A model generated the notes under the pieces. That model searched no databases. It was not told the origin of the DNA and worked only from the letters and a program-made list of their open reading frames with translations. 28,218 nucleotides of DNA from a virus: the IMG/VR virus record IMGVR_UViG_3300019487_000080, positions 1 to 28,218 of that record, one strand, 5' to 3'. Each line of letters begins with the position of its first letter. Positions within the stretch are counted from its first letter, which is position 1. Positions 15,623-28,218 of the stretch are shown here, in pieces. Both the position numbers and the translations under genes were made by a program.

Positions 15623-15697
15623 TGCGGGGTAGAGCATCGGTAGCTTACCGGCCCCATAAGCCGGTGGTAGTTGGTTCAATTCCAACCCCCGCAACCA
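15623..15697 (+). tRNA. tRNA with CAU anticodon, initiator-like (Met), CCA encoded
   Basis: A full cloverleaf is visible. The acceptor is TGCGGGG / CCCCGCA (15623-15629 / 15687-15693), the D stem GAGC / GCTT, and the anticodon stem CCGGC / GCCGG with loop CCCATAA (CAU anticodon at 15655-15657). The T stem is GTTGG / CCAAC with loop TTCAATT. The discriminator A (15694) is followed by genomic CCA (15695-15697). It resembles bacterial initiator tRNA-fMet in acceptor stem, A11-U24 pair and G29-C41/G30-C40 pairs. It differs in having a U1-A72 pair instead of the C1-A72 mismatch, C33 instead of the near-universal U33, and C31-G39 in place of G-C. Confidence 0.9.
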
Positions 15698-18751: not shown

Positions 18752-19352
18752 GGTTGAAAGCTGCAACGTCGCGCTTGTGTTTGTCGGCTCGCAGAAGATT
18801 AGCTCGCTTTTGGACGCCAGCGACGAGGCCGTTGCGTGTAATACCCTGTTTGCCAGCGAGCGCGACTCGCTCCTAGCCAAACACGCGTGGCGGTTCGCGA
18901 TTCTCCGCCAGGGTATCGGGGAAGACGCGATGCCACCGAACTTCGAGTTTGCCCACTCCTACACCCTTCCTGCGGCGTGTGTTCGCCCGTTATCCATTGA
19001 TCCCGTCGGGTACGAGTGGGTTGTAGAGGGCCGCAGTATCGTCACGAACGCCCCGCCCCCAGTATCCCTCCGCTACGTGTCCCGCGTCACGGACGTTGCC
19101 TCGTGGAGTGAATACTATCGGAAGGCGTTCGAGGCCCTACTCGCGTGGCGCCTCTGCTTTGCCTTGACGGGGAAGGAGAGCCGCGCAGACGCGTGCAAGG
19201 AGTGGTTCAAACAGGAAATGATGGAGGCTCGTACGAACAATGCGTACGAGGCAACCCCGTACATGGAGTCGAGCAACCCCCTCGCCGAGGTGCGGGAGCG
19301 GACCGGGATGCTTATCAATGGCGGCCAGAAGGTGTATTGGGGTTTTGAGTAA
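18741..19352 (+). CDS. Tail tubular protein A (T7 gp11-like)
   Basis: 203 residues (T7 gp11: 196) from ATG 18741, overlapping the small membrane gene by 11 bases; a longer ATG at 18696 lies within that gene. Typical features: N-terminal EVESCNVALVFVGSQKISSL, DEAVACNTLFASERDSLLA, KHAWRFAILRQ and YRKAFEALLAWRLCFALTG. The protein forms the upper ring of the short tail tube that joins portal and nozzle. It is followed without a gap by tail tubular B, as in T7. Confidence 0.88.
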   Translation: MASEVESCNVALVFVGSQKISSLLDASDEAVACNTLFASERDSLLAKHAWRFAILRQGIGEDAMPPNFEFAHSYTLPAACVRPLSIDPVGYEWVVEGRSIVTNAPPPVSLRYVSRVTDVASWSEYYRKAFEALLAWRLCFALTGKESRADACKEWFKQEMMEARTNNAYEATPYMESSNPLAEVRERTGMLINGGQKVYWGFE

Positions 19353-21574
19353 TGCCCCCCTCGCAGCGGCCAATTCAGAACAGTCTGAATAGCGGCGAGT
19401 TGTCCCCGCGCCTGCGGGCGCGTGACGACTTTGAGCGGTACCAGAATGGCGTTGAGAAGATGCGGAACTGGATTCCACTCCCGCATGGTGGCGCACACAC
19501 ACGCTCTGGCACGGTCTTTGTTTCGGAGGTGAAGTCCTCCTCGAAGGAGACGATCCTTATCCCCTTTGAGTACAGCACGATAGAGTCCTACATCATCGAG
19601 GCCGGCGACCTGTACTTCCGGTTCTACCGCGATGGGGGCAGGATCGAGTCCTCGCCGGGAACGCCGGTGGAGATCGCCACGCCGTACGCGGAGGCCGATC
19701 TGCCCGACGTGCGGTGGGTACAGTCCTCGAACATTCTGTACCTCGTGCATCCGTCCTATCAACCCCGCAAGTTGATCCGCAACTCAGACACCTCCTGGAC
19801 GCTTACGATCATCGACTTCGTGGACGGCCCGTACCAGGATCAGAACAAGGATACAACGAAAACCATTGCCCCGTCCGCGACCAGCGGCTCGGTTACACTT
19901 ACCGCCTCGGGGCATTCCCCGTTCTCCGCCAGCGATGCCACAAACGGCCGGCTGGTCCGCATACAGCAGACGAATTGGGGCTACGCAAAGATAACGGGTT
20001 ACACCTCGCCCACCGTCGTCACTGCGACGGTGATTAACGCGTTCGACAACACGACGGCAAGTTCCAAGTGGCGCCTCGGAGCCTTCTCCTCGACCACTGG
20101 CTACCCTCGCGCGCTGACGATTATGGAGCAGCGGCTCACGTTTGGCGGAACCTCGGCGGACCCGGATAGTGGGTGGATGTCTACGACGGGCTCGTATGAG
20201 GACTTTTCTCCGTCGTCAATTGCCGGAACGGTCGCAGACAGCGATGCAATCTCCTTTCGCCTCGGCTCACAGAAGGTCAATGCGATCCTCTGGATGCTTG
20301 GCGGGCGCAACCTGCTCATTGGTACCCGTGGGGAGGAATACCACGTTGGCGCGGCCAACGACAACGTGGCGCTTACACCCTCGAATAGGTTCGCGCACAC
20401 ATCGAGCGCGTTCGGTTCGAAGGCGGCCAGCCCTGTCAAGAACGGGTCGTCGGTCGTGTACTTTTCCCGCGGCGGGCGTAAGGTCCGCAACATGGAGTTC
20501 GACGCGGCATCTGACCAGTACAAATCGCCCGACTTGACCATCTTTGCCGAACATCTGGCGCGCCGTCCGCGGTCCTTCAAGTGGATGGCGTATCAGCAAG
20601 AGCCTGACTACACGCTTTGGATTATCCGCGACGACGGGTACCTTGCCTCGATGACGTTCCTGCCAGTCGAAAAGGTTCTCGCGTGGGCGCTTCACGACAC
20701 GGACGGGTTGTATCGGCACGTCGCCGTGATCCCCACCTCTGACGATCTCGAAGACCAAGCGTGGTTTGTGGTGCAGCGCACAATCGGTGGCGCGACGAAG
20801 CGATACATCGAGTATTCCGACGCGGACTACAACGTGGACGCCGGCCTCAAGTATGATGGGACTGTCTCGACGGCAACCCTGACACCCGGTGCGACCACCG
20901 GCAACGGCGTGACGTTCACGGCGTCGGCCAGCGTATTCGCGGCTGGCGATGTAGGAAAAGACCTTCTTCTGCTTGGGTATACGGTCGGCGGGGTAAAGTA
21001 TTATAGCCGCGCGGCCATCGCGACCTACGTTAGCCCGACACAGGTGACGGCAAACATCACCACCGACTTTCCCAATACTAGCCCTGTCGCGGCGGGCAGT
21101 TGGGCGCGGGCGCTAGGCACCGTATCCGGGCTGTCCCATTTGGAGGGAAAGACAGTTAAAATCGTGGGGGATGGTGCCGTCTATGACGACGGTGTTGTAA
21201 GCAGTGGGTCCGTTTCCTTGACGAACGGCCCGAAGGCTGCGATCATCTACGTTGGCCTTTCCCGCCCGCGCACGTACATTAAGACCCTGGAGCCATACTA
21301 CCGCGACGAGCGCGGGACCATTCGAGGTCGCCAGAAGCATTGGGCCACTGTCGAGGTGGACATAGAGGATACGATGGGCTTGGATGTCAACGGCAAGGAG
21401 TTGCAGTACCGCCTGCCGTCGGACCCGATGGATGTGGCATTGGCTACATTTACCGGCCGCAAGGTCGTCGCGAACCTCGGGGTTTCTCCGTCCGGCCAGT
21501 TGGAATTTGAGCAGAAGCAACCACTCCCGGCGACTTTGAACGCGTACTACGGGGAACTTTCCTTTGGCGATTGA
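19352..21574 (+). CDS. Tail tubular protein B, nozzle (T7 gp12-like)
   Basis: 740 residues (T7 gp12: 794). ATG 19352 overlaps the previous stop (TAATG). N-terminal signature NSLNSGELSPRLRARDDFER and NWIPLPHGGAHTRSGTVFV is diagnostic for the family. Also typical are IPFEYSTIESYIIEAG, VRWVQSSNILYLVHPSYQP and TYIKTLEPYY near the end. The protein forms the tail nozzle through which DNA leaves. Position between gp11-like and gp13/14-like proteins matches T7 order. Confidence 0.93.
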   Translation: MPPSQRPIQNSLNSGELSPRLRARDDFERYQNGVEKMRNWIPLPHGGAHTRSGTVFVSEVKSSSKETILIPFEYSTIESYIIEAGDLYFRFYRDGGRIESSPGTPVEIATPYAEADLPDVRWVQSSNILYLVHPSYQPRKLIRNSDTSWTLTIIDFVDGPYQDQNKDTTKTIAPSATSGSVTLTASGHSPFSASDATNGRLVRIQQTNWGYAKITGYTSPTVVTATVINAFDNTTASSKWRLGAFSSTTGYPRALTIMEQRLTFGGTSADPDSGWMSTTGSYEDFSPSSIAGTVADSDAISFRLGSQKVNAILWMLGGRNLLIGTRGEEYHVGAANDNVALTPSNRFAHTSSAFGSKAASPVKNGSSVVYFSRGGRKVRNMEFDAASDQYKSPDLTIFAEHLARRPRSFKWMAYQQEPDYTLWIIRDDGYLASMTFLPVEKVLAWALHDTDGLYRHVAVIPTSDDLEDQAWFVVQRTIGGATKRYIEYSDADYNVDAGLKYDGTVSTATLTPGATTGNGVTFTASASVFAAGDVGKDLLLLGYTVGGVKYYSRAAIATYVSPTQVTANITTDFPNTSPVAAGSWARALGTVSGLSHLEGKTVKIVGDGAVYDDGVVSSGSVSLTNGPKAAIIYVGLSRPRTYIKTLEPYYRDERGTIRGRQKHWATVEVDIEDTMGLDVNGKELQYRLPSDPMDVALATFTGRKVVANLGVSPSGQLEFEQKQPLPATLNAYYGELSFGD

Positions 21575-22007
21575 GGTACGGCCCTCCCGGGTGGAGGACA
21601 TAGCCCTTCTACTTGGCAACGCCCCCGGCTGGCTGTCCGGCGCGTGCCTGCGGGAAATGTCCTCTTCCTTCCAGGATCGGTACGCAACCACGTTTCTCGT
21701 TGACGGAGAGGTTGCCGCGTGTTATGGCGCCTCCCAGCCGTGGCCTGGACTGGTGGAAGTGTGGGCCGTGGTGCATCCCGAGCGTGTCCACCACTGCCGT
21801 CTGACGTTTCACCGCGCTGCGAAAGCGACGGTTGCGGACCTCCTGGCCGATCCTACCTTACACCGCCTGCAAGCCTACGTGCTGCGTAACTACGAGGTCG
21901 GCCGCGCCTGGGTGCGCCGTCTTGGCTTCGAGGCGGAGACGATCATCGAGGCCGCCGGCCCGCAGCGTGAAGACCTCGTTGTGTATCGGATTCTAAAGAA
22001 GGGGTAA
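21564..22007 (+). CDS. GNAT-fold protein at the T7 gp13 position, 147 aa
   Basis: TTG 21564, overlapping the nozzle gene by 11 bases. GNAT-type pattern: EVRPSRVEDIALLL at the start, VDGEVAACYGASQPWPGL and VEVWAVVHPE in the middle, then LRNYEVGRAWVRRLGFEAE. The last block looks like the C-terminal GNAT strand-helix. T7 gp13 (138 residues, internal virion protein A) occupies the same slot and is needed for virion assembly. Whether this protein still transfers acetyl groups is not visible; the canonical acetyl-CoA R/Q-x-x-G-x-G/A loop is not clear. Confidence 0.7.
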   Translation: MAIEVRPSRVEDIALLLGNAPGWLSGACLREMSSSFQDRYATTFLVDGEVAACYGASQPWPGLVEVWAVVHPERVHHCRLTFHRAAKATVADLLADPTLHRLQAYVLRNYEVGRAWVRRLGFEAETIIEAAGPQREDLVVYRILKKG

Positions 22008-22008
22008 C

Positions 22009-22536
22009 ATGGAAGCCGCGATTGGCGCCTCCCTGATCGGTTCTGGACTTGCCGCGTACGGGCAGTACGAGGCGGGTAAAACGCAGAAAAAGGCTGCTCG
22101 CGAAAACCTCGGCCTTGCGAGGGTGGAAGCGAAGACGACTCGCGACTCCGCGGTTGAGGACGAGCGTATTATCCGCGACCAGGGACGGCGGACGCTGGGT
22201 GCGTTTCGCGCTCGCCAGGGCGCGTCCGGGTTCGCGGCAAATGACGCGTCCTTCATCGACGTGGCAAACGATCTGATGCGACAGGTTGAAACGGACGTGG
22301 CGAATAACAACTTTAATAAGGAAAACGAGGCTCGCTCCAAGGAGATCGCCGGCCTTATCGGGCTTAGACAAGGGATCGTGGCGGAGAAGGCGGGGCAGAT
22401 CGGGGCGGTATCCACCCTCCTCACCGGCGGCGCGACTGCCTACACCGCGTACACGCGCGGTCGTATTGCTAGCCAGCTTTCCCTTGGGCCGGGTTCGGCG
22501 GTTGTTACTCCTTCTTCTACTCCCGCGACGCCGTGA
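22009..22536 (+). CDS. Internal virion protein B (T7 gp14-like)
   Basis: 175 residues (T7 gp14: 196), ATG 22009 with AAGAAGGGG upstream. The N-terminus (AAIGASLIGSGLAAYGQYE) is a small-residue, membrane-compatible helix, followed by a long helix with KKAARENLGLARVEAKTTR and GAFRARQGASGFAANDASF, the latter typical of gp14-type ejection proteins. The C-terminus is Ser/Pro-rich. Such proteins are ejected first and form the pore in the outer membrane. Confidence 0.78.
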   Translation: MEAAIGASLIGSGLAAYGQYEAGKTQKKAARENLGLARVEAKTTRDSAVEDERIIRDQGRRTLGAFRARQGASGFAANDASFIDVANDLMRQVETDVANNNFNKENEARSKEIAGLIGLRQGIVAEKAGQIGAVSTLLTGGATAYTAYTRGRIASQLSLGPGSAVVTPSSTPATP

Positions 22537-22542
22537 GGACGT

Positions 22543-24240
22543 ATGCCTGAACTCAAGACCGGCACAGTTTCTCGTAATCCTGTAAATCTGCCCCGCTACA
22601 ACCCCGCCGCGATGGCGGAGGCCGACGCGGCGCTCGCCCAAGGCGGTGCCCGTGTGGCCGCGGCCGGCAACTCGTTGATAGAGGTTCAGTCATACATCAG
22701 CCGGTTCGAGAAGACGGCGGAGGCTGCGACCATCGGTGAGCCGCTTGTCCAGTCGGCCCTGTCTGAGATCGAGGTTATCGGGTCGTTGCTGCGGAGGCCG
22801 AAGCCGAGGGAGGATGGTTCTCCTGGCAATGCCGGCGACTTTGATGCAGCCGGCGCCAAAAAGGAGTTCGCGCGGCAGTCTGCGGAGGTCCTTGCGCGTG
22901 TTCAACAGGACCCGCGGTTGAAGGACAATCTATACGCGCAGAAGTACGTCTCGCTACACCTCGGCACCGCGATGCGCTCGGCCAGCGCAGCGTTCAATGG
23001 TGCCGCGGACAAGCAGTGGCAGGAGGTGCAGCAGTTCCGCATCGCGCAGAACATACGCGGGATGGTGCAGGAGGCCGCGAATATCGCGTCTGGCGACGCG
23101 ACGCTCGCTGCTCCGTACCAGGAGAACACGCTTCGCACGCGCATCCACGATCAGATCGGGGCTGGCATCGGGGTGTTCTACACCGCCGAGCAGGCCATCG
23201 CGTATGAGAAGGAGGTCCTGCACGAACTTGACTTTGGTGTGGCGTCCCGGCGGGTGATACGGGACCCGGACACGTACTATGCCGCGCGCAAGAACGGGGA
23301 AAACCCATTTGGGCTGGCTGAGGCCGACAACTTGAAGCTGGACACCGTAATGCGCGAGGCTTTCATCACGCGTGACCACGTACGCGAGAAACAGGACAAG
23401 GCTGACAAGGCGGTGGTGAAGGCGGATCAGGACCGCGCACGCATTGAGACGGTTGCTGGTGTGGTTCGGGGTACTGTGGTACTCAACGACATCATCAAGA
23501 ACGCGCACAAATACTCTGCTGAGGACTTCTCTGTTGTGACTACCCTTGCTCGCGCGGTCGAGAAGGAAAAGATGACGGACGAGAAGCAGCGCATAAACGA
23601 CGATGCGTACGCTTCATTGTCCGCGCGTATCAATTCTCCTCTCTACGCGGTTGTTTCTGCCGTGACCGACGCCGAGATTATGGCGCTGGTCAAGCATCAA
23701 CAGATCACCGGCCATCAGGGCGGTGTGCTGATGAACGAGCGCCACGCGAGGCTGGGAGAAATGGCGAACAAGGCCGAGACGCTTTACGACAAGCGCGCGG
23801 CCGAGGCCCTTGGCGACATCCGCCGTCACTATCAGCAGCCGTCACTGTTAAAGTTGGATCAGTCCTTTTCCACGGCGGAGAGCATCGCAACGCTGTACTT
23901 CAACGAAATGGTCCGAGCGAACCGGGACAAGGTGGACAAGGAAGGCAACTTGTTGGACCCGAAGCTGTTCCTCTCGGACGCGCTGCGGCAAGCCGACAAG
24001 CCGATCCTCAAGCAGCGCCAACGCCAGTTGCTACAGGAGTTGCACACGTACCAGCAGACCTACAAAACGCGCCAGTCCGTCGTGGACGCGTTTCAGAAGG
24101 GGCAGATTAGCGAAGACTACATGAAAATCGTCGTCGACGCATTCGACAACTTTGACGAACTCGGCCGCCAGCTTCGTGCGGCGGAGAACAAGCCGGAGCC
24201 GGTACAGGGGAAGGCCGGTAAGACTGTGGAGGAACGGTGA
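22543..24240 (+). CDS. Internal virion protein C (T7 gp15-like ejection protein)
   Basis: 565 residues (T7 gp15: 747), ATG 22543, seven bases after the previous stop. Highly helical and charged, without catalytic motifs. SYISRFEKTAEAATIGEPLV lies near residue 46; LRTRIHDQIGAGIGVFYTA and ISEDYMKIVVDAFDNFDEL lie further on. Its length, helical repeat character and place between gp14- and gp16-like genes support the assignment. In T7 the protein forms part of the periplasmic DNA-translocation tunnel. Confidence 0.7.
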   Translation: MPELKTGTVSRNPVNLPRYNPAAMAEADAALAQGGARVAAAGNSLIEVQSYISRFEKTAEAATIGEPLVQSALSEIEVIGSLLRRPKPREDGSPGNAGDFDAAGAKKEFARQSAEVLARVQQDPRLKDNLYAQKYVSLHLGTAMRSASAAFNGAADKQWQEVQQFRIAQNIRGMVQEAANIASGDATLAAPYQENTLRTRIHDQIGAGIGVFYTAEQAIAYEKEVLHELDFGVASRRVIRDPDTYYAARKNGENPFGLAEADNLKLDTVMREAFITRDHVREKQDKADKAVVKADQDRARIETVAGVVRGTVVLNDIIKNAHKYSAEDFSVVTTLARAVEKEKMTDEKQRINDDAYASLSARINSPLYAVVSAVTDAEIMALVKHQQITGHQGGVLMNERHARLGEMANKAETLYDKRAAEALGDIRRHYQQPSLLKLDQSFSTAESIATLYFNEMVRANRDKVDKEGNLLDPKLFLSDALRQADKPILKQRQRQLLQELHTYQQTYKTRQSVVDAFQKGQISEDYMKIVVDAFDNFDELGRQLRAAENKPEPVQGKAGKTVEER

Positions 24241-27200
24241 GCCACGAAAACTCGGTTACGCTTCCAACCGACGAAGGGGCGGTTAATGTATCCGGGAGGA
24301 CTGGCGAGGTCTTGACCCCGGAGTTCAGCTTCGAGCGCGCGTCGTACAAGACTACGGACCACGCAGCGGTTGCGGCTATGCTGCGCTCTGCGCTTGGAGG
24401 CGCGCCTAGCGAGAACCTGGACGCCGCGCACCGCCACCGGCGGGCACAGGAGGCGGAGCGTGACTTGTTCTTCTCTCTCGCGCCGTTGCCTGTGGAGTCG
24501 AAGCCAGAACCGGTCAAGCCGGTGAAGAAGGCAAAGACTTTCCAGGTAGACCCCGCTGCGTCAGGGCTTGAAGAACTGCCGAATGATGGCGGGTTCGTCG
24601 GCGCCGGCGCCGCAGCAGGCGCTCGCCCACAGTTTGTCACGCCGCAGGGGAAGAAGACGATTGGTCGCCGGCAGGGCGCGGAGGATCAACCTGTTCCGCC
24701 TACGCCAGAGGAATTGTTTGCCTCGTTTGGCGAGACTCTTTCCGAGCCGCAGCAAGCGTTTCTTCGTGATGTAATCGGCAAGGCGAACGCTACTGCCGGG
24801 GCGAATATCAAGCCGGACGCCTCAGGGAAATACAATCCGCCACAGGTCCTCGATGCGCTTGCCCCGGGTTGGTTTGATAAGTTCGCGGCAGAGGCTCGTA
24901 CGCTTGGTATTCCCGAGGCAGTTGTGGCCGCCGTTGCTACCCTTCCAGCCGTTGCCGCGACGATTGGCTCGGACCCGTTGAACCTCCTCCCCTTCCCCGG
25001 CCCGAAAGGCGGGAAAGTGGCAGTGGACGCGCTCTCCGCTGCGGCAAAGGCAGTCAAACACCCCCCGCTCAAGTGGGAGACGCCGCTCCCTGGCACGGTT
25101 GACGTGTTTCCCGGGAACATTAAAGGGTGGGCGGTCCAGCCGACGCAGCAGATTCCCATTGACGAGATCGCGGTGCAAGGCCCGCGTACGGAGGCGCGCG
25201 CCGTCGAGCGGCTGACCCAGCTTGCAGAAGACCCGTCCACAGTCCCGCCGGTCACAGTCGAAATGCTGGAAGGTGGCGGGTATCAAATGTTGGATGGGGA
25301 GCACCGCCTCGCCGGGGCGAAGGCCCTTGGCTTGCGGTCCGTTCCAGCGAGGGTCATCTTATCCCCGGAAATGCAGAAGTCGCTGGAGAAAAAGTTCGAG
25401 GACGTTGCGACCAACTCCATCCATTCGCTCTACGAGAACGGCGGCTCGACCTTCAACCTGCGTACCGGCAACCAGTTCGGGAAGCCGGCACATGCCGTCT
25501 CCTTGTTCCCCGAGTTTACCGTCGAGGTTCCCGGCCACGCGACGGTCAACGACGTGATGAACTTCGTGCAGAAGTCCGCGGCGCACATTAACTACGACGA
25601 TGAAATGTTCAACATCGGGACGTGGTTTAATAAGAGCACGGGTAAAACCGAGATCGACGTGACTGTTGCTATTGCGGATCGCCAGCAGGCCGTCAGGCTC
25701 GCGTCCATGTTTGGGCAGAAGGCCATCACGGACCTCTCCTCTGGCACGGAGATTGCTATCAACGGGATGCCCCCCACGCGCCAGTACAGCATCGAGGATC
25801 GCGTTGCGATGGTAAAGCTTGCCCAACACCCCCTCGCGCCCGCGCAGGTGGAACCACTTTCCTACCAGTTGGGGGTTGCCGCGGGCCTGCAAGGGTCGCG
25901 TACGGCGCCTCGCTTGCCTGTCTTCAATGCCACACAGAATAGCCACGGGCACCAGCTTGGGGCGGTGGAGATTCGCGAGTCGTTCAGCAACGTGGCGGCC
26001 GCGCGAGAATCCGCGCTGGCCCCTCCAGGAACAGCCATTGACACCCCGCTGGCAGAGGCGGGGTCCAAGTCCGTCCTCACAGAGGACGTGCGTAATCTCG
26101 CGACGGCCTACGACAAGGCGCCGGTGTTCGATCCCGAAGCGGCCCCTCTGTGGCGCGCGCTCGCGGCGGAGACGGAACGGCTTTACGATGAAGTGGCGGG
26201 CAAGGTCAAGTTCGTCCCGGTTGATGCGGATGCCCCCTACCAGACAGCCGCGCAAATGTTCGACGACATCCGCGTGAATGGGCAGATGAAGGTAAGCGCG
26301 CTGAACAATGAGCATCCACTGTTTAGCCCGGAGCAGAACTTCAAGTTCCGCGCCGTCCACGACTACTACGGCCACTACCTGAACGGGGCCGATTTTACCA
26401 TACAAGGGGAGAATCTTGCGTATCGTTCGCACGCGCCTCTGGTAGCGCCCGACGCGCGGAAGGCCCTCGATGTAGAGGTGCGTGGACAGGCCGCGGCTGC
26501 CCTCGCACATGGCGGAGAGTTCCAGGTTCAGAAGGTATTCCGCCCAGGGTTTACCTACCCCGAGGCTGGTGCGGCCCCCTCGAACGCCACGAAGGGCGCG
26601 GCAGTCATCGCGCGCGGGCGCATGCGTACGACCGAGGACTTCAAGGCCGGTATGGCAAAGGTGCTGGATAAAAAGGAGTATGACGCAATCCCTGAAAAGG
26701 AGTGGAAGGCGCTGCACCGCGAGGCGGAGAGTGAGTTCCGCCGCTTTACCCGTGCCGCGGCCGGCAAGCAGTTACCCTCCGTCCGCAAGCTAACCGAGTT
26801 GCTTGGGGAAGGCGCCGACTACTTCGATTGGTACCACGGGGCGACTGAGGAGTTACGCGCTCTGTTTGGGGACGACTGGCGGATCGTAACGAAGTTCATC
26901 GCGGCCTCCTCGCCGCTAACCCCATTTAATAAAGGCGAGTCCTTCAACAACCTGACGCTCGCGATGGACGCGTATCTCGACTGGAAGACCGGGAAGACGA
27001 TTAAGGGGATCATGCCGGCGCACACGTTGAACCTGCAACGTGCCGCGAACGGCCTGCCGCTTGAGGGGTGGAAGGTCAACGCGTTTGACCGCGCGCTCGC
27101 GGGGGACCCTAACGCAGTTACGAATGATAGGTGGATGGCTCGCATTTTCGGGTTTGAGGAGGTCGCGTCCAAGCAAAACTACGACCTCATGTCCGAGATC

Positions 27201-28218
27201 ATCACACAGGAGGCGACCCGTCTCCACGTGGCCCCGCGTGACTACCAAGCCGCGCTGTGGGCGGCCACTAAGACAGAAGCCGGGTTGGCGAAGGGTGAAA
27301 TCCTTGAGCCGTTCCGCAACAGCGTGCGCCGGATTATGGCAAAGGGGCCGCAGGAGATTCAGTTGGGGCTTCCCTTAAATGAGGCGGGCCGGCTGAATAC
27401 TGGCGTGCTATTCCTCCTGGCACGGGCGGTCATTGGCGCCGGCGTAGGTGCCACTTTCGGAGACGACACGGAGACAAAGCTGCGGAACGCGCTTGCCGGA
27501 ATGGTCGGCGCCAGCGCGGTATCCCCCGCCCTCGTTCATGCGCTGGCGGAAAACGCGCGCAAGGCGATCTCGTCCGCCTATACGCGGATGGGCGGGGCTG
27601 CCCTTACTAAAGCCGAGGCCGCCCAGCCCCTTCACGAAATCGCGGCGCGCTACCACGACGCCGTGGAGGCGTACACGCGCGGGGTGCAGACACACGAAAT
27701 GGCTCGTGCGGAGGGCGCCGAGTTGCTGCGCTCTGGCGCGATTACCCGCGAACGTATTGAAGGGCTCTACCCCGGGGCCACGCTGAATGATGCGGAGATC
27801 AGTGCCATGTCCGGCGTGCTCATGGACGAGGCGGAGAGGCTGCAAGTCCTCGCACACGGCGCCCAATCCGGCGACTCCGTTAAAAAGCAGGCGTTCCTGC
27901 AACAGGTCGCGACCTTCGCGAAGCTGGAGCCTCGCGCGGGTGGCATACTGTCCGAAACGGGCCGCTCGCTGTCCTACATACAGGACGTGACGAATAGTGT
28001 CCACGCGTACGTGCGCCAGTTCCAGGGCGTGCTGGGAAAGATGCGGAGTGGGCAATCCGTGGAACGCCTCGCGGAAATGTTCGCGGCGCTCAAGACCCCT
28101 GAGCAGATGATGGTCTTCACGCGCGAACTGACGAAGCCTGGTCTCTCGGACGCCCTGATAGAGTTTTGGATCAACGGGCTCCCCTCCGGCTCCGCACACA
28201 CACGACCAATCTGGTGTA
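24237..28218 (+). CDS. Giant ejection protein (T7 gp16 position) of polyvalent type with a ParB-like domain (partial)
   Basis: Starts at GTG 24237 (GGAGG upstream, GTGA overlap) and stays open to the window edge: 1327 codons. Residues 1-215 are Pro/Ala-rich with no known domain. Residues 227-245 are hydrophobic. Residues 300-375 form a ParB/Srx-like domain with IPIDEI, then YQMLDGEHRLAGAKALGL (D353, H356, R357) and VPARVI. Residues 430-507 hold a conserved-looking alpha/beta unit. At 635-755 come SALNNEHPLFSPEQNFKFRA, VHDYYGH (H708, H713) and EVRGQAAA. At 862-970 are WYHGATEELRALFG, FIAASSPLT and NDRWMARIFG. A Gly-rich hydrophobic pair is at 1057-1102. This layout resembles 'polyvalent' phage proteins that are injected with DNA. 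A frameshift is suspected near 28187-28196. Confidence 0.8.
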   Translation, partial: MSHENSVTLPTDEGAVNVSGRTGEVLTPEFSFERASYKTTDHAAVAAMLRSALGGAPSENLDAAHRHRRAQEAERDLFFSLAPLPVESKPEPVKPVKKAKTFQVDPAASGLEELPNDGGFVGAGAAAGARPQFVTPQGKKTIGRRQGAEDQPVPPTPEELFASFGETLSEPQQAFLRDVIGKANATAGANIKPDASGKYNPPQVLDALAPGWFDKFAAEARTLGIPEAVVAAVATLPAVAATIGSDPLNLLPFPGPKGGKVAVDALSAAAKAVKHPPLKWETPLPGTVDVFPGNIKGWAVQPTQQIPIDEIAVQGPRTEARAVERLTQLAEDPSTVPPVTVEMLEGGGYQMLDGEHRLAGAKALGLRSVPARVILSPEMQKSLEKKFEDVATNSIHSLYENGGSTFNLRTGNQFGKPAHAVSLFPEFTVEVPGHATVNDVMNFVQKSAAHINYDDEMFNIGTWFNKSTGKTEIDVTVAIADRQQAVRLASMFGQKAITDLSSGTEIAINGMPPTRQYSIEDRVAMVKLAQHPLAPAQVEPLSYQLGVAAGLQGSRTAPRLPVFNATQNSHGHQLGAVEIRESFSNVAAARESALAPPGTAIDTPLAEAGSKSVLTEDVRNLATAYDKAPVFDPEAAPLWRALAAETERLYDEVAGKVKFVPVDADAPYQTAAQMFDDIRVNGQMKVSALNNEHPLFSPEQNFKFRAVHDYYGHYLNGADFTIQGENLAYRSHAPLVAPDARKALDVEVRGQAAAALAHGGEFQVQKVFRPGFTYPEAGAAPSNATKGAAVIARGRMRTTEDFKAGMAKVLDKKEYDAIPEKEWKALHREAESEFRRFTRAAAGKQLPSVRKLTELLGEGADYFDWYHGATEELRALFGDDWRIVTKFIAASSPLTPFNKGESFNNLTLAMDAYLDWKTGKTIKGIMPAHTLNLQRAANGLPLEGWKVNAFDRALAGDPNAVTNDRWMARIFGFEEVASKQNYDLMSEIITQEATRLHVAPRDYQAALWAATKTEAGLAKGEILEPFRNSVRRIMAKGPQEIQLGLPLNEAGRLNTGVLFLLARAVIGAGVGATFGDDTETKLRNALAGMVGASAVSPALVHALAENARKAISSAYTRMGGAALTKAEAAQPLHEIAARYHDAVEAYTRGVQTHEMARAEGAELLRSGAITRERIEGLYPGATLNDAEISAMSGVLMDEAERLQVLAHGAQSGDSVKKQAFLQQVATFAKLEPRAGGILSETGRSLSYIQDVTNSVHAYVRQFQGVLGKMRSGQSVERLAEMFAALKTPEQMMVFTRELTKPGLSDALIEFWINGLPSGSAHTRPIWC
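28187..28218 (+). other. Suspected 1-base deletion at the end of the ejection-protein gene
   Basis: In the main frame the protein reads EFWINGLPSGSAHTRPIW at the edge. From 28196, the frame shifted by one base reads THTTNLV. Related phage proteins carry a conserved 'NGLLSGPxTHxxNL' at this point, which is recovered if one base is missing between about 28187 and 28195. This is probably a sequence or assembly error near a contig end, or a true frameshift. Confidence 0.5.

Follow-up and report, generated by a model that had tools for sequence, protein, structure and literature searches.

Which enzyme-like domains are carried by the giant protein encoded in a podovirus structural module, and what would they do when the phage enters its host? 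This question is raised by the window analysed here, the whole stretch of 28,218 nucleotides of IMG/VR virus record IMGVR_UViG_3300019487_000080. Its last gene (24237..28218; all features below lie on the plus strand) covers 1327 codons and has an open 3' end. The gene is truncated because the source record is a 28,218-base virus contig and the gene runs into its end. The original prediction, made from the letters of the window, had described a polyvalent, ejected protein with a ParB/Srx-like domain and several conserved uncharacterised units. In this study, that observation was confirmed and its interpretation was partly supported; the units that could only be described there are more interesting than the ParB domain. 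We propose that the gene probably encodes a large internal (ejection), polyvalent protein of an epsilon15/phiV10-pelagiphage-type podovirus, which would deliver a base-excision-like set of DNA enzymes. What was observed directly is which domains are present, which of their residues are conserved, that they recur together and where the gene lies.

The DUF7178 domain

The WYHG...FIAASSP unit is present and conserved as the original prediction had claimed, but it had been left uncharacterised, and a predicted glycosylase with the catalytic Lys and Asp in place had been missed. The unit belongs to Pfam DUF7178 (PF23802, 7.7e-8; residues 864-1015, 26826..27281), a family labelled "unknown function", and has the predicted fold of an HhH-GPD DNA glycosylase/abasic-site (AP) lyase. 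Common to 32 DUF7178 sequences were WY, SPxxxW, a Lys in a G-P-K-like turn and an Asp 18 residues further on. The two latter residues are K946 (27072..27074) and D964 (27126..27128), the predicted catalytic lysine and aspartate, and both are invariant (n=32). Their spacing is that of E. coli endonuclease III (K120 and D138). DUF7178 was aligned by hhalign with bacterial EndoIII/MutY-type proteins from genomes, and both residues were paired with the Lys and Asp of the EndoIII family over 144 columns at P 0.003, a value that is weak alone. Two other modules of the protein, VHD and GFT, served as controls against EndoIII/MutY and gave 0.5 and 0.7. A DUF7178 profile of six sequences was too loose for scanning, and a PDB profile match to 3wtc was judged to be noise.

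The original prediction had proposed a structure prediction of residues 200-1110. VHD and DUF7178 were modelled as single domains, and a joint alignment of residues 285-1040 placed fragments wrongly; an OGG-like match was obtained for DUF7178 and none for VHD. The AlphaFold model of DUF7178 had a pLDDT of 83, with a core above 90. By VIA, SsOgg, MjOgg and TmOgg were the top matches (Z 11.3-11.6), followed by human OGG1 and AGOG. The Z score for SsOgg and MjOgg was 11.6 over 158-161 residues, and all 50 VIA rows among the matches listed were 8-oxoguanine glycosylases. MjOgg was also at rank 1 in Foldseek (probability 0.98, TM 0.58, E 0.62). The HhH-GPD fold is seen in the model, and the catalytic Lys and Asp lie about 18 residues apart around the hairpin. 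Since the fold and the catalytic pair agree, we regard DUF7178 as a predicted OGG-like HhH-GPD DNA glycosylase/AP lyase. It resembles the OGG2-type 8-oxoguanine glycosylase/lyases (SsOgg, MjOgg and TmOgg) in predicted fold and in the HhH-GPD arrangement of the Lys/Asp pair. However, it shares only ~10% identity with them, is fused in a virion-type protein and has its own conserved WY, SPxxxW and QAxxW. Another HhH-GPD hairpin may be read by eye in an 858-aa VHD protein (L022:5728-8301), in the C-terminal PGVNPKVASFAWLLL...IIDTHV.

VHD, GFT and their recurring association

The VHDYYGH/EVRGQ unit was correctly noticed as conserved, but it had been missed that this unit forms a family of its own (phrog_3170, 1e-22) with early-gene relatives. 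The VHD domain covers residues 601-799 (26037..26633) and has a predicted helical fold. We surveyed it in 80 viral loci and 29 genome loci. N701, F704, R705, H708, D709, G712, H713 and E725 were invariant, and H732, E747 and Q751 were near-invariant. H708, D709 and H713 lie in the VHDYYGH motif (residues 707-713, 26355..26375). The GENLAYRSH...EVRGQ segment (residues 724-751, 26406..26489) holds E725, H732, which is kept in the core family, E747, which is E or D, and Q751. The VHD model was a confident one (core ~95); its fold is helical and places the HD..GH motif at a helix end. No PDB fold match was found for this model, and among the BFVD relatives of VHD some carry the names ART-PolyVal, large polyvalent or head-morphogenesis.

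The distant VHD relatives LKA1 ORF7 and genes of T7-like Pseudomonas phages retain N..FR..HD.GH..E..[ED]..Q. In T7-like phages the VHD-fold genes are located at the left end of the genome, which is the classic early position, and in M1.1 the gene lies ahead of the RNA polymerase gene. Such early genes of T7-like Pseudomonas phages were found at L211:1729-2208 and L210:3662-4228; in M1.1, a 'hydroxylase' also lies three genes further downstream. The motif of aromatic amino acid hydroxylases, H[DE]xxGH with a later Glu, occurs in VHD as a local resemblance. The hhalign comparison with these enzymes gave P 0.014, and none of them was among the Foldseek matches listed. The motif parallel is striking, but the assignment was rejected without significant profile or fold support, and because neither backs it, the likeness stays a lead. 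A zincin was also rejected, since the motif is H-x4-H and not HExxH, and globin matches (Z 3) were noise.

VHD was also observed on chromosomes of Micromonosporaceae and related bacteria (L136-L158, L160-L162 and L164) as a stand-alone gene of ~230 aa, mostly near 7.8-8.6 kb of the locus. Its neighbours are, in 26 loci, a divergent gene resembling N6-methyltransferases and, in 23 loci, a Ser/Thr kinase gene in antiparallel orientation. Many of the Micromonosporaceae loci are flanked by repeat arrays, which in L150 accompany type I-E cas3. The VHD/methyltransferase/kinase group may be an undescribed host module.

The claim of several conserved uncharacterised domains held, but a third module linked with VHD and DUF7178 had escaped notice. 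This module, 'GFT' (residues ~402-510, 25440..25766), is conserved and has no Pfam family. A hidden Markov model built from four other proteins, with the window excluded, matched residues 439-505 at 2.7e-9. GFT was present in 52 of 114 VHD loci, which include near-duplicates, and in gp11 of Synechococcus phage S-CBP42, an internal virion protein at the equivalent position. Like the window protein, S-CBP42 gp11 is a giant protein at the gp16 position with a GFT module, but it is without VHD or DUF7178 and has an ADP-ribosyltransferase-like segment in their place. In this protein (L008:4342-9174), YHATN...GSGVYTATD, ahead of GFT, reads by eye as an ADP-ribosyltransferase.

We then compared how the modules are combined. 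One protein holds both VHD and DUF7178 in the window, Rhodococcus phage E3 gp205, L072 and L159; the two are separate yet close in Skog, the Bixzunaviruses, the L017 group, L084 and L048. GFT joins the two in five places and four arrangements, namely GFT-VHD-DUF7178 fused (window), VHD next to DUF7178+GFT (Skog), DUF7178 next to VHD+GFT (Bixzunavirus) and three separate genes in the order VHD, GFT and DUF7178 (L017 and L084). As background, tblastn with the window DUF7178, a search of low sensitivity, touched only 47 records in a phage set of 50,697, even with E values up to 1 allowed. The VHD/DUF7178 pair occurs in about nine independent lineages, far beyond such background. These results demonstrated that VHD, GFT and DUF7178 recur together, fused or neighbouring, in unrelated phages. 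E3 gp205 is annotated as 'structural protein' and shares the VHD-DUF7178 fusion with the window protein; it differs in having these two modules only, without a ParB domain, and in belonging to a long-genome (143 kb) actinophage.

Gene position and the ParB/Srx domain

The frame 24237-28217 is a genuine gene. It has a GTG start at 24237, which overlaps the stop of the upstream gene and follows a good ribosome-binding site, GGAGG (24228..24232), and the third-position GC of its 1327 codons is 75%. The length of at least 1327 residues in the original prediction was therefore borne out, and its motif positions were exact (DGEHR 353-357, VHDYYGH 707-713, EVRGQ 747-751, WYHG 865-868 and FIAASSP 887-893). 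Hydropathy showed Gly/Ala-rich hydrophobic stretches at residues ~221-248, 1052-1076 and 1085-1104. The first is an N-terminal Ala/Gly-rich segment (24897..24980), and the other two form the Gly-rich pair noticed before (residues 1052-1104, 27390..27548).

The genes upstream encode, in order, terminase, portal, a protease-like protein, major head protein, tail tube, nozzle, and gp13-like, gp14-like and gp15-position proteins. The tail nozzle (tail tubular B; 19352..21574) matched phrog_376 at 2.7e-179, the internal virion protein/acyltransferase-like protein at the gp13 position (21564..22007) matched phrog_308 at 5.9e-8, and the gp14-like internal virion protein (22009..22536) matched phrog_418 at 3.7e-21. 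The gp15-position internal protein of 565 aa (22543..24240) had no family match. Because this gene order is common to phiV10, the Skadi pelagiphages, Cobetia phage Carin1 and the Manatee Spring podoviruses, the giant gene is assigned to the slot of the large internal protein. The T7 gp16 position proposed before was thus correct, and synteny and domain company support the reading of a polyvalent, ejected protein. The gene lies in the structural module, and its late-region product brings together enzyme domains of several different kinds.

The window protein is similar to T7 gp16 and the epsilon15/phiV10 internal virion proteins in its place after the nozzle, gp13-, gp14- and gp15-like genes and in its hydrophobic segments. 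In contrast to them, DNA-enzyme domains stand in its visible part instead of a transglycosylase. No counterpart of the N-terminal lytic transglycosylase of T7 gp16 was found in residues 1-1327, which gave neither a transglycosylase nor a lysozyme match, in agreement with the original prediction. The giant protein had no PADLOC match. A giant gene of ~8.6 kb, Carin1 gp32 (L005:15041-21809), is located at the equivalent position and is annotated as hypothetical. A tRNA-Met gene was observed within the structural module of the window (15623-15697).

Residues ~301-396 (25137..25424) are a real ParB/Srx-superfamily domain by Pfam ParB_N and a profile of relatives. The isolated domain matched Pfam ParB_N at 5e-5, just under the gathering score. 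A profile that included phage relatives from viral contigs matched PDB entries of Spo0J (1.2e-6), ParB, Noc, SbnI and free serine kinase. The GxxR-type pocket core, DGEHR (residues 353-357, 25293..25307), is conserved: D353, G354 and H356 were invariant in 8 sequences, and R357 was found in 7 of 8. The original prediction was to fall if no ParB/Srx match was obtained or if close homologues had lost the core; with the match obtained and DGxH invariant, it stands. Taken together, the domain units are above chance (phrog_3170 1e-22; DUF7178 7.7e-8, above the Pfam cut-off; ParB profile 1e-6 against the PDB).

The superfamily includes DNase and nucleotidase examples, and since ParB-type domains in polyvalent proteins have already been described (PMC5512222), the giant protein is least unusual in its ParB domain. 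ParB beside VHD or DUF7178 in other loci was found in one weak case only, which places it outside the conserved VHD/GFT/DUF7178 set. In Mycobacterium phage Herbertwm (L095:1375-2660), a DUF7178 gene lies two genes from one that is ParB-like and has a DGHHR motif. Polyvalent phage proteins (PMC5512222), including the phage P1 DdrB-type ParB proteins, are likewise large late-region products in which several enzyme-like domains are joined, one of them of the ParB/Srx superfamily, and their entry together with the DNA is expected. As a difference, the text of that paper contains no glycosylase or hydroxylase, and none of the named LPD families of Pfam is matched by VHD, GFT or DUF7178.

Possible role at phage entry

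The protein would be packaged and then ejected with the genome. Its hydrophobic segments would be membrane-active and help delivery, and its enzyme domains, in the order ParB/Srx, GFT module, VHD and OGG-like glycosylase, would act on DNA inside the cell before any gene expression. The ParB domain may provide NTP-regulated DNA binding or nicking/cleavage. DUF7178 would flip out a base and remove it, with K946 as the Schiff-base nucleophile together with D964, and would then nick the abasic site. VHD, with its His/Asp/Glu core, may be a metal-dependent partner enzyme working on the same substrate or product. The likeliest use, early in infection, would be to damage the host chromosome or, during takeover, to remove bases by which DNA is marked or blocked.

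Several points weigh against this proposal. The Foldseek E value of 0.62 for the DUF7178 model is non-significant, a Z score of 11.6 for an all-helical domain would be merely suggestive without the catalytic residues, and a glycosylase fold leaves the substrate unfixed. Related folds serve in base hypermodification. No solved relative of VHD was found, so its proposed chemistry is guesswork. Ejection is read from synteny and domain company, and the 'structural protein' of E3 is an annotation alone. The gene lacks its 3' end, and the search of viral contigs gave no close homologue of full length.

Other explanations were weighed against the same evidence. The foremost of them, a minority possibility, is counter-defence: host restriction or defence systems would fail because modified or marked bases are removed or changed by the VHD-glycosylase set, or because this set nicks host defence DNA. 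Bacteria use DNA glycosylases both for antiviral defence and as restriction enzymes (PMC11078745, PMC10273834); hosts therefore already wield base excision in this arms race. The Micromonosporaceae VHD homologue is conserved beside the N6-methyltransferase and Ser/Thr kinase genes, often next to repeat arrays, and VHD relatives are early genes of T7-like phages; but no defence system or target was identified, and the host-side genes are without a shown defence role. Somewhat less likely, the ejected glycosylase may clear 8-oxoguanine or similar oxidative damage from the incoming phage DNA, held there by the ParB domain. This would suit the 8-oxoguanine glycosylases as nearest solved structures and a protein placed where entry with DNA is expected. 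However, it leaves the constant VHD and GFT partners unexplained, no downstream AP endonuclease or polymerase was seen in the protein, and fold similarity does not fix the substrate.

We consider two further explanations improbable, and equally so. The HhH-GPD-like domain could be a transferase of an amino acid or other group onto DNA bases, with VHD as an oxidising or hydrolysing partner. Modification enzymes with a glycosylase fold are known, and VHD and DUF7178 travel together; nevertheless, the Lys and Asp of bifunctional glycosylases are invariant, and a virion-borne enzyme would act too early for replicating progeny DNA. Alternatively, the enzyme-like domains could be inert building blocks of the internal core or channel, as podovirus internal proteins mediate genome delivery through the envelope (PMC8954989). 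Against this, each of the three enzyme-like domains of the window protein has retained its catalytic or core residues, and VHD and DUF7178 also occur as small non-virion genes.

We therefore retain the ejected polyvalent protein with base-excision-like enzymes as the probable explanation. A bolder form of it, which we put forward tentatively and consider doubtful, is that VHD, GFT and the OGG-like glycosylase constitute a conserved, undescribed base-attack machine, delivered with the phage DNA or expressed first. VHD would then be a new metal-dependent enzyme fold, and the giant protein would be the first example of an ejected effector for base excision. Within the limited literature searched, we found no internal virion protein reported to contain a glycosylase.

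These results give DUF7178, a Pfam family of unknown function, a testable enzyme identity. They also define phrog_3170 (VHD) as a phage family of wide occurrence whose core is invariant and active-site-like; it is represented both in proteins of virion type and in some of the earliest genes of T7-like phages. Culturable relatives, namely Rhodococcus phage E3, the Bixzunaviruses and the T7-like Pseudomonas phages, are open to testing. The giant protein appears to point to DNA bases being attacked or repaired within the first minutes of infection, and suggests that phages deliver base-excision chemistry at entry.

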